Shown piece after piece: positions 4,327-7,570 of a stretch of 64,000 nt of DNA. This DNA is from an uncultured Bryobacteraceae bacterium. GTDB taxonomy: Bacteria > Acidobacteriota > Terriglobia > Bryobacterales > Bryobacteraceae. Both the position numbers and the translations under genes were made by a program. Location: NCBI GenBank assembly GCA_937924525.1, contig CALDSU010000007.1, positions 1-64,000 of the forward strand. Reading direction: 5' to 3'. Positions within the stretch are counted from its first letter, which is position 1. Each line of letters begins with the position of its first letter. The notes below the pieces were generated by a model. The model was not told the DNA's origin and searched no databases. It saw only the letters and a list, made by a program, of their open reading frames with translations.

Positions 4327-4438
4327 CCGCTGTGCTTGCCACCCGCGCGGGCGTTGCGTCATATTGAAAACACCGGCCGGGATCGACGAGTGCGGCCCCA
4401 GTTCCGCGTTCGTCCAGGCAAGGAAGCGAGTATGGGCG

Positions 4439-5698
4439 ATGGCGGACCAGCTTCTGTTCCTCACCGAACTGATGGGGTTGCCGGTCTACGATCTGCGGAA
4501 GCGGCGGATCGGGCGGGTGCGCGACGCGGCCATTGTCCCGCTGGCTGATCCGTTCCGCGTGGACCGCTTCCTCGTCGGCGGGGGCTGGGCTTGGCTGACG
4601 GTCCGCTACGACCAGGTGGAATCCATCAGCCTGGAGGGCATCCAGCTTTCCGACGAGAACCTGACGCCTTATCACGACGACGAATACCTCCTCCGCTTGG
4701 TGCGCGATTTGCTGGATCAGCAGATCATTGACGTCGACGGACGGAAAGTGGTCCGGGTGAACGACGTCACCTTCGAAATCCGCCAGGAGCGTGGCAACGG
4801 AGTACGCCCCCACACATGGCTGCGGGTCCTCGAAGTCGACATCGGCGTCCGCAGTATCGTGCGCCGGCTGCTTCAGGGGCTGCTGCCGGCGCGCTGGATC
4901 CGCTGGCTGCAACAGCCGGTGCCGCCGAACTCCATCCGCTGGGAGGTCTGCAATATCGTGGAGCCCGACCCCCAGCGCCGGGTCCGCCTCAACATCTCGC
5001 ACGCCAGCCTGGAGGAAATGCATCCCGCCGACCTCGCCGATATCGTCGAGGAACTCAGTCCCGAGGACCGCGGCGCCATCTTCCAGACGCTCGACAGCGA
5101 AGTGGCCGCCGACGCGCTCTCCGAGGTGGAGGATCCCAAGATGCAGGCGCAGATCCTGGAATCGCTGGAACCGGAGAAAGCCGCGGAGATTGTCGAAGAG
5201 ATGGCGCCCGACGAGGCCGCGGACGTGCTGGGGGAACTCGAAGAGGCCGCCTCCGAGGAGATTCTGGACGAAATGGACGAGGCGCCCGAGTCCGAAGTGC
5301 GCGAACTCTTGGAATTCCGGGAGGACTCGGCGGGCGGCCTGATGAACACCGAATTCGTCGCCCTGCCCGTCTCCGCCACCGTGGCGGACGCCATCGCCGC
5401 GCTGCGCTCGGCGGACGATCTGGCGGAGAACCTGAACACGGTCTTCCTGACCGACGAGCACGGCCGCCTTGCCGGCGCGGTGCCCCTGGGGCGCCTGTTC
5501 GTGGCGCGCGAGAACTCCCTCTTGCGCGAGGCCGCGGCAGACACATTGATCTCCGTGTCCGTCCACGAGCGTCAGGACCGCATCACCGAACTGTTCGACA
5601 AATACAATCTGCTCACCCTGCCGGTGGTCGACGAAGAGGGCCGGCTGCAAGGTGTGATTACCGCCGACGACATCATCACCGTGCTGAGGGAGAAGTGA
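4439..5698 (+). CDS. PRC-barrel / MgtE N-domain / CBS-pair cytoplasmic sensor (no membrane domain)
   Basis: 419 residues from the ATG at 4439 (AAGGAAG 12 bases upstream). Domain order: PRC-barrel (about 1-75, LTELMGLPVYDL), linker, a second barrel-like stretch, MgtE N-terminal superhelical domain (about 185-285, HPADLADIVEEL repeats rich in Glu/Asp/Ala), then a CBS pair (about 290-419, ending VITADDIITVL). In MgtE magnesium channels these two cytosolic domains bind Mg2+ and close the pore; here the transmembrane domain is absent. The next gene, 10 bases downstream, is an Nramp-related transporter with magnesium-type site residues, so this protein is best read as its soluble regulatory partner. 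The earlier in-frame ATG at 4364 lacks support. Confidence 0.85.
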   Translation: MADQLLFLTELMGLPVYDLRKRRIGRVRDAAIVPLADPFRVDRFLVGGGWAWLTVRYDQVESISLEGIQLSDENLTPYHDDEYLLRLVRDLLDQQIIDVDGRKVVRVNDVTFEIRQERGNGVRPHTWLRVLEVDIGVRSIVRRLLQGLLPARWIRWLQQPVPPNSIRWEVCNIVEPDPQRRVRLNISHASLEEMHPADLADIVEELSPEDRGAIFQTLDSEVAADALSEVEDPKMQAQILESLEPEKAAEIVEEMAPDEAADVLGELEEAASEEILDEMDEAPESEVRELLEFREDSAGGLMNTEFVALPVSATVADAIAALRSADDLAENLNTVFLTDEHGRLAGAVPLGRLFVARENSLLREAAADTLISVSVHERQDRITELFDKYNLLTLPVVDEEGRLQGVITADDIITVLREK

Positions 5699-5708
5699 CG
5701 CAACCTGC

Positions 5709-6953
5709 ATGCTGACCCTGCTGCGCCGGTTCCGCTACCGCCTGGCGATTTTCTTTGCCGTCTTAGGGCCCGGCTTCATCACGGCCGTCGTCGACAATGA
5801 CGCCGGCGGCTTGATCACCTACTCGCAGGCGGGCGCCCGCTGGGGATACCTCCCGCTCTGGACGCTGCTGCCGATCACGCTGGTGCTGATCATCACCCAG
5901 GAAATGTGCTCCCGCATGGGGGCGGTGACCGGCAAAGGGCTTTCCGACCTGATCCGCGAAGAATTCGGCCTGCGCGTCACGTTCCTGGTGATGGCTCTGC
6001 TCGTGTTGGTGAATCTGGCCAACATCATGGCCAACTTCGCCGGCATCGCGAGCGCTTTGGGCTTGTTTCAAGTGCCCCACTGGGTTTCCGTGCCGCTGGG
6101 CGCGCTCGCCGTGTGGGTGCTGGTGGTGAAGGGAAACTACGCCAACGTCGAGAAGATCTTCCTGTTTGCCTGCGCCGTATACGTTTGTTACATCATTTCC
6201 GGCGTGCTGGTGGAGCCCAACTGGAAAGAAGCGGCCATTTCGAGCCTGCGCCCCACCCTGATGCTGGACAGCGCCTACATCGAAATGCTCATCGGCATGG
6301 TGGGCACCACCATCGCGCCCTGGATGCAGTTCTATTTGCAGGCTGCCGTAGTGGAAAAAGGCGTCAGCACCAAAGAGTACGCCGAATCGCGGCTGGAAGT
6401 GATCGCGGGGTGCATCATGACGGTGGTGATCGCTTTCTTCATCATCGTGGCGTGCGCCGGCGCCATCTGGAAGTCCGGTCCGCGGGATATTCAGGACGCG
6501 GCGGAGGCGGCGATGGGGTTGCGCCCGTTCGGCGAGTACGCGTTCCTGCTGTTCGCGGCGGGGCTGTTCAACGCTTCGTTGTTCGCGGCCTGCATCCTGC
6601 CGCTATCCACCGCGTTTTCCGTCTGCGAAGGGCTGGGCTTCGAATCGGGCGTCAACAAGCGCTTTCGCGAAGCGCCCGTCTTTTACTGGTTGTACACGCT
6701 GCTGATCGTGGTGGGCGCGGGCGTGGTCCTGATTCCGGGTTTCCCGCTGATCCGGATGATTCTCCTCTCCCAGGTGATCAACGGCGTGCTGCTGCCGATC
6801 GTGCTGATCTACATGATCCTGCTCATCAACAACCGGAACCTGATGAAAGAGTGGGTGAACTCCTCGTTTTACAACTGGGTGTGCTGGATCACGGTCGTGG
6901 TGATGATCGGACTGTCGCTGGCGCTGATGGCGATCAGCCTGCGGGGATTGTAG
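5709..6953 (+). CDS. Nramp-related divalent metal transporter, predicted Mg2+ (NRMT) type
   Basis: 414 residues, about 11 membrane helices. In helix 1 the Nramp metal motif DPGN is replaced by DAGG (residues 31-34, within VVDNDAGG), keeping the aspartate but changing Asn to Gly. In helix 6 the motif A.xMPH is replaced by TTIAPWMQ, with Ala203 where classical Nramps have the metal-selecting Met. From the literature on Nramp-related magnesium transporters, this Asp/Gly/Ala pattern marks proteins that carry Mg2+ (and Mn2+) rather than iron. It is co-transcribed with the MgtE-N/CBS protein ending 10 bases upstream, which fits magnesium as substrate. No riboswitch was recognised upstream. Annotation pipelines would probably call it a plain Nramp or Mn/Fe transporter. 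Confidence 0.85.
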   Translation: MLTLLRRFRYRLAIFFAVLGPGFITAVVDNDAGGLITYSQAGARWGYLPLWTLLPITLVLIITQEMCSRMGAVTGKGLSDLIREEFGLRVTFLVMALLVLVNLANIMANFAGIASALGLFQVPHWVSVPLGALAVWVLVVKGNYANVEKIFLFACAVYVCYIISGVLVEPNWKEAAISSLRPTLMLDSAYIEMLIGMVGTTIAPWMQFYLQAAVVEKGVSTKEYAESRLEVIAGCIMTVVIAFFIIVACAGAIWKSGPRDIQDAAEAAMGLRPFGEYAFLLFAAGLFNASLFAACILPLSTAFSVCEGLGFESGVNKRFREAPVFYWLYTLLIVVGAGVVLIPGFPLIRMILLSQVINGVLLPIVLIYMILLINNRNLMKEWVNSSFYNWVCWITVVVMIGLSLALMAISLRGL

Positions 6954-7218: not shown

Positions 7219-7570
7219 TGGTGGAGGCGGCGGGAGTCGAACCCGCGTCCGAGAAAGCCCTCTCTGAAGAGCCTACGTGCGTAGCCGATTCCCAAGTTTC
7301 GGACCCAGCCTCAGAACCGGCAAGACGAACTGAATCCTAGCCCGATTGATCTCAGCCTGCTGCTCCGGACCGAAGCTCTCGGCCTATCCCGCAAGCATGA
7401 CGCTCGCTCGCCGCCGCGCGGGCTCGGACAGCGGGAGCGGCTACCTAGCGATTAGGCAGCGTATGCAAACTGCGTATTGGCAGTTATGGTTTTCCGATCG
7501 TTTAACGGGAGCTCGGAACCCGGCACGCCTCTCCAAACAGAATCCATCCCGTCGAATCCGTTACGCCCCC
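7219..7570 (-). ncRNA. ssrA: tmRNA (transfer-messenger RNA)
   Basis: On the minus strand the 5' end (GGGGGCG at 7570-7564) pairs with CGCCTCC next to the 3' ACCA (7219-7222), forming the tRNA-like acceptor stem; the T-arm GGGTTCGACTCCC precedes it. The tag frame at 7481-7452 reads GCC AAT ACG CAG TTT GCA TAC GCT GCC TAA, giving the proteolysis tag ANTQFAYAA after the tRNA-borne alanine. Length 352 nt is normal for one-piece tmRNA. It rescues stalled ribosomes with SmpB and marks products for ClpXP-type degradation. The 5' conserved box GGATTCGACGGGAT is also present. Confidence 0.95.

Follow-up and report, generated by a model that had tools for sequence, protein, structure and literature searches.

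Within the stretch of DNA analysed here (the window; 64,000 nucleotides of contig CALDSU010000007.1 from an uncultured Bryobacteraceae bacterium), a gene for a soluble protein resembling the cytosolic part of MgtE adjoins a gene for a Nramp-related magnesium transporter (NRMT or NrmT). The best reading, which we hold with somewhat more confidence than doubt, is that the first protein (the sensor) is a regulatory subunit giving Mg2+ feedback on the second, an uncoupled NRMT importer. The pairing itself is already known. According to Shin et al. (2014, PMC4072509), most NrmT genes adjoin a homologue of the cytosolic N-terminal part of MgtE, for which these authors speculated on a role in cytoplasmic feedback regulation or as a metal chaperone. 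When the partner gene of Acidobacterium capsulatum was co-expressed with its transporter, no added complementation effect was seen, and its function was left open (PMC4072509). The window shows the arrangement of the operons of Shin et al., a stand-alone gene for the MgtE cytosolic domains adjoining an NrmT gene, and its pair is a further member of this published pairing. A preliminary description of this DNA had proposed a separate MgtE cassette that gates an unrelated transporter, and had considered this design undescribed; the sensor as a subunit is still the best-supported reading, but the novelty has to be given up, since the pairing, the feedback proposal and the test of an acidobacterial pair had all been published (PMC4072509). 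The interest therefore lies in a sharper test and not in the discovery of the pairing. What is new here is the co-occurrence survey, the M-box link in Acidobacteriota, the analysis of kept and lost site residues and the comparison of AlphaFold chains. In the open-access literature we found no later work on the sensor partner, subscription journals being mostly outside this coverage, and no paper in which both "PRC-barrel" and "MgtE" occur.

Both genes lie on the forward strand, with a 10-base spacer from the sensor stop to the transporter ATG (Table 1). The sensor protein matches the Pfam families PRC (E 9.8e-7), MgtE_N (2.5e-26) and CBS (1.5e-13, in two stretches). Its hydropathy maximum over 19-residue windows is 1.45, and since none of these windows reaches 1.6, no membrane helix is predicted, in agreement with the domain content and lack of membrane helices described before. 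The closest solved structure for residues 192-419 is the cytosolic domain of MgtE (2YVY). The transmembrane domain and the plug helix of MgtE are not present in the sensor (it has no hydrophobic segment, and its second CBS domain is terminal), so that the protein is not an MgtE channel, although it is homologous in the N/CBS part. Within the PRC-barrel-like part, the second half (LLDxQIIDxxGRKVVRVNDV...RR) ranks among the best-conserved stretches of the sensor, and Pfam finds PRC in 35 of 37 sensors; we propose that this part may serve as a docking module. As the partner is annotated merely as "CBS domain-containing protein" or "magnesium transporter", its link to NRMTs is easily overlooked.

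Table 1. Coordinates of the sensor-transporter operon and its features in the window
Feature	Position	Strand	Remarks
Promoter-like site TTGCCA-18-CATATT	4336..4365	+	upstream of sensor gene; consensus match
Sensor gene, soluble PRC / MgtE_N / CBS-pair protein, 419 aa	4439..5698	+	ATG 4439, stop 5698
PRC-barrel-like part of sensor	4445..4867	+	missing from MgtE
MgtE_N domain	5018..5326	+	carries D260 (5210-5212) and D264 (5222-5224)
CBS pair	5336..5689	+	carries D413 (5669-5671); stops where MgtE plug helix would start
NRMT-clade Nramp-related transporter, 414 aa	5709..6953	+	ATG 5709, stop 6953
DAGG, helix 1 (DxxG of NRMT signature)	5799..5810	+	signature from PMC8806188
TTIAPW, helix 6 (TxxA of NRMT signature)	6306..6323	+	signature from PMC8806188; TTIAPWMQ 6306-6329

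The sole Pfam match of the transporter is Nramp (6.3e-91). For NRMTs, Ramanadane et al. (2022, PMC8806188) defined the signature DxxG-TxxA/T, which the window transporter carries as DAGG and TTIA. The canonical Nramp motifs DPGN (helix 1) and MPH (helix 6) are not found in the window transporter; in our alignment the MntH of the same genome places DPGN and ATVMPH opposite DAGG and TTIAPWMQ, which bears out the motif replacements reported in the preliminary description. The best solved match, over the whole length, is EleNRMT (7QIA, E 1.6e-104). In our tree, a 99/99 branch splits MntH and DraNramp from the NRMT side, with the window transporter among the NRMT rows; EleNRMT is without firm placement inside this side. 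The earlier assignment to the magnesium-type (NRMT) Nramp clade is right. EleNRMT transports Mg2+ without coupling and Mn2+ as well, the latter with an apparent Km of 119 uM (PMC8806188). A triple mutant of EcoDMT into which the signature residues had been put showed no Mg2+ transport (PMC8806188), so the signature alone is not sufficient for Mg2+ transport.

Besides MntH and a full MgtE, the genome encodes a further, distant Nramp-like protein; for CorA there is a partial match. Deriving the metal of the window transporter by exclusion was rejected because both MntH and a full MgtE are present, and the full MgtE also implies that the sensor-NRMT unit is not the sole Mg2+ route. The mntH gene (L001 1312-3246, contig C4) encodes a fusion to a C-terminal universal-stress-protein-like domain, and long MntH frames similar to it occur in other Acidobacteriota. 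The distant third Nramp-like protein (C1:89786-90880, L003) scores 82.6 bits, and its place in the tree is unreliable.

Our survey covered 247 Acidobacteriota genomes; its counts are those among the matches listed, so that weak sensors of genomes lacking an NRMT may have escaped. Among the matches listed, an NRMT of the two sensor-linked clades occurs in 76 genomes, and each of them carries a sensor too. Clade 1 comprises 64 strong NRMT matches in 63 genomes, and a full-length sensor is found in each of the 63 (again among the matches listed). Of the 64 matches listed, 27 have the sensor directly upstream, 19 have it on the same strand within 10 kb, and for 18 it lies elsewhere; co-presence thus holds without adjacency. 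Clade 2, 35-38% identical to the window transporter and with DAGG and TTI(A/T)PW in the nine loci read, adds 13 further genomes, in 12 of which the gene order is reversed, the sensor following directly downstream; one sensor (L069) was recovered by reading the locus, and one pair is split over two contig ends. No sensor lies within ~3 kb in 11 loci of the DPSG/SPYLFF outgroup clade, and none adjoins three further PW-motif paralogues, whose genomes hold a clade-1 pair. Of 80 named GTDB loci, 46 have an adjacent sensor, 12 have it upstream beyond a gap and 22 are without it (7 of these cut by a contig end), with pairs spanning Acidobacteriota, Desulfobacterota, Nitrospirota and Omnitrophota. The pair was also found on an Alicyclobacillus plasmid and, in clade-2 order, on the conjugative Citrobacter freundii plasmid pPSV (L166 2530-5242). 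In several relatives the stop and start codons overlap or the spacers are short, the overlap being seen in the closest relative, L168 (transporter 87% identical).

Given a sensor in 76 of 76 genomes with an NRMT of these two clades, out of 247, the pairing is far beyond chance. The surveys of the 247 genomes and of the 80 GTDB loci exclude an adjacency restricted to this genome, which the preliminary description had taken into account. We attach practically no probability to a chance adjacency of genes without functional link: nothing was found in its favour, and it is refuted by the complete co-occurrence, seen in both gene orders, in several phyla and on plasmids.

Some loci show additional features. 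Tandem NRMT genes were found in L052 3176-5811 (G237) and in G415:C209. The pair on pPSV adjoins a heavy-metal P-type ATPase and an ArsR/SmtB-type regulator, and a further match lies on a Serratia marcescens plasmid. Some Acidobacteriaceae carry, between sensor and transporter, a gene that reads as a CgeB-like glycosyltransferase (L117 3828-4871, L130 3955-5004 and others); it was rejected as a third component of the unit, as it occurs in some loci only. No natural sensor-NRMT fusion was found; long frames such as those at G129 and G160 are GC-rich DNA free of stops, in which the sensor uses a different frame.

In MgtE, the cytosolic Mg2+ sites include Mg4, formed by D91 and D247, and Mg6 with D95 (PMC5882242). 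We mapped the MgtE residues onto the sensor via a sensor-MgtE alignment and scored their conservation in 66 clade-1 sensors. D91 corresponds to D260 of the window sensor (Asp in 56 of the 66), D247 to D413 (61 of 66) and D95 to D264 (65 of 66), and the position of E59 (Mg7) is occupied by E or D in 53. The Mg5 residues D226 and D250, on the other hand, are lost, being N392 and T416 in the window and mostly N and S/A across the clade-1 sensors. The ATP pocket of MgtE, whose residues include F227 and R187 (PMC5529423), is changed as well: Y170, R187, D188 and F227 are replaced by T336, G353, R354 and L393 in the window sensor, and across clade 1 F227 is mostly L and R187 mostly A or G. In five clade-2 sequences D247 is kept, D91 is not and D95 is kept in part, so that the argument from kept sites is valid for clade 1.

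A complex prediction had been suggested beforehand as a check on the pair. We applied AlphaFold to single chains in which the sensor stop codon, read as serine, joins sensor and transporter; 43 of 89 adjacent pairs share one reading frame, and such a read-through chain can therefore be obtained from unaltered DNA. For L171, whose transporter is 79% identical to that of the window, the predicted chain (alignment of 98 rows, 35 of them joined, two plasmid-record rows excluded) reached a mean pLDDT of 90.2 and a pTM of 0.73, and the model matches 7QIA with a TM of 0.90 and 2YVY with a TM of 0.85 (normalised to targets). The control, a sensor-glycosyltransferase read-through from L117 (51 rows, 3 joined), gave a pLDDT of 88.6 and a pTM of 0.51, which is about the value due to two well-folded halves without fixed placement. 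Judged from pTM only, and for one target and one control with unequal alignments and a short artificial linker, the gap favours a defined sensor-transporter arrangement, and hence an interface as looked for earlier; the sensor was modelled as a monomer, though MgtE domains pair. A physical complex is thus suggested by a predicted model.

These results also bear on the question if the sensor acts on something other than transport itself, as a metal chaperone, as a factor in transporter assembly or stability, or as a relay of the Mg2+ signal to another target. The chaperone alternative was named by Shin et al. (PMC4072509), roughly one in four strong cases (among the matches listed) has the two genes far apart, and a gating effect has been measured by no one. 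However, the sensor has the domains and metal-site residues of the gating apparatus of MgtE, and the predicted chain places sensor and transporter more confidently than the control. We regard such a role without gating as quite improbable.

Upstream of the sensor gene, the promoter-like consensus has one match, against 0.3 expected in shuffles, and CATA(G/T)TG elements similar to the window site precede the sensor in many relatives. Neither an Rfam riboswitch nor any other Rfam element, including the M-box, was found at the window operon. An M-box directly upstream of the operon is present in Alicyclobacillus, in the delta-proteobacterial loci L147 and L159 and in the acidobacterium L107, and among the 247 Acidobacteriota genomes a single M-box was found, 78 bases upstream of a sensor match (G246). 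Both acidobacterial M-box cases fall, together with the window transporter, into one 100/100 tree group of nine rows. These cases argue that close relatives act in Mg2+ homeostasis, the evidence coming from the relatives; M-box control was found for a subset of the NRMT clade and is not required for membership.

Alternatively, the pair could be, physiologically, a Mn2+ uptake unit, the sensor answering to Mn2+ or to the balance of Mg2+ and Mn2+ and not to Mg2+ alone. With the transporter of A. capsulatum the rescue of Mn2+ uptake was complete, whereas that of Mg2+ uptake was seen only at low millimolar Mg2+, and Shin et al. judged this protein a likely Mn2+ transporter (PMC4072509). The Mn2+ transport of EleNRMT (PMC8806188) and the lack of a Mg2+ riboswitch in the window point in the same direction. 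Against this stand the canonical DPGN/MPH MntH that the genome already has, the upstream M-box in two acidobacterial relatives of the same supported tree group, the match of the sensor residues to the Mg2+ sites of MgtE, and the result that no Mn2+ riboswitch (RF00080) was found in the 247 Acidobacteriota genomes. On balance we consider a Mn2+ unit unlikely.

In Bryobacterales we also observed a leader, (A/G)TGTAGAGCGCAC ... GCGCTCG, that follows CATA(G/T)TG some 70-90 bases upstream of the sensor start. It is kept in about a third of the sensor operons of this order (L085-L089, L093, L096, L170-L176, L191, L198, L207, L232 and others), and leader-type matches elsewhere in the same genomes look different, belonging mostly to one recurring unrelated sequence. 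This leader is not present in the window. A structured RNA is not supported, as the leader folds no more strongly than shuffles (mean z -0.28, n=30); an operator or other signal is possible. The transporter gene is directly followed by a tmRNA gene on the reverse strand (window 7219-7570), and a tmRNA is likewise found near the operon in L147.

In the preferred reading, regulation by Mg2+ feedback, the operon of the two genes would encode a single Mg2+ uptake unit. Its Nramp-related member would be a proton-uncoupled importer carrying mainly Mg2+ and probably also passing Mn2+, and the PRC/MgtE_N/CBS protein its separate cytosolic regulatory subunit. The latter may bind Mg2+ at sites that match Mg4 and Mg6 of MgtE and lie between the N and CBS domains, and may dock on the transporter with its strongly conserved PRC part as the likely anchor; at high cytosolic Mg2+ it would lower transport, and an uncoupled importer of an abundant ion should need such a brake. 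This reading draws on the near-complete co-occurrence in both gene orders, on the close or overlapping gene junctions and the upstream M-boxes of relatives, on the kept Mg4 and Mg6 residues and on the higher pTM of the sensor-transporter chain. Some findings speak against it. Complementation was unchanged when the A. capsulatum partner was co-expressed, and the transporter rescued Mn2+ better than Mg2+ uptake (PMC4072509), although this assay would not show inhibition at high Mg2+. In addition, the NRMTs of C. acetobutylicum (PMC4072509) and Eggerthella lenta (PMC8806188) function without a partner, the window has no M-box, no natural fusion was found, and the full MgtE gives the genome a further Mg2+ route.

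How NRMTs, as uncoupled importers of an abundant cation, are restrained is a question standing since 2014, and a near-obligate partner with kept Mg2+-site residues offers a concrete, testable answer. A broader proposal, to which we give even chances, is that a transporter of the LeuT fold has the detached MgtE cassette, with its PRC docking domain, as its near-obligate regulatory subunit. One Mg2+-sensing module would then control two unrelated folds, acting in cis in MgtE and, with the plug helix and the ATP-linked parts lost, in trans in NRMTs. This would mean that a regulatory module, in the form of a free subunit, has passed from one transporter fold to another that is unrelated to it.

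Among known systems, MgtE (2YVY) shares with the sensor the N and CBS domains, which align over residues 192-419, and the Mg4 and Mg6 residues; it differs by its channel, plug helix, Mg5 and ATP-pocket residues, which the sensor lacks, and by the absence of the PRC part. MntH of the same genome and DraNramp belong to the same Pfam family as the window transporter and have the same LeuT-type fold, but carry DPGN and ATVMPH and stand on the opposite side of the 99/99 branch. EleNRMT has the DxxG-TxxA signature and is homologous over the whole length, but was characterised without any partner. The pairs described by Shin et al. (the Ca_c0685 operon of C. acetobutylicum and ACP2976/2977 of A. capsulatum) likewise consist of two genes with the sensor first; as differences, the window operon is without an M-box, and a PRC part is not mentioned in PMC4072509. 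In C. acetobutylicum the sensor is divided over two genes, whereas that of the window is a single gene; the A. capsulatum pair comes from the same phylum as the window, and ACP2977 is likened here by its description, not by its sequence.
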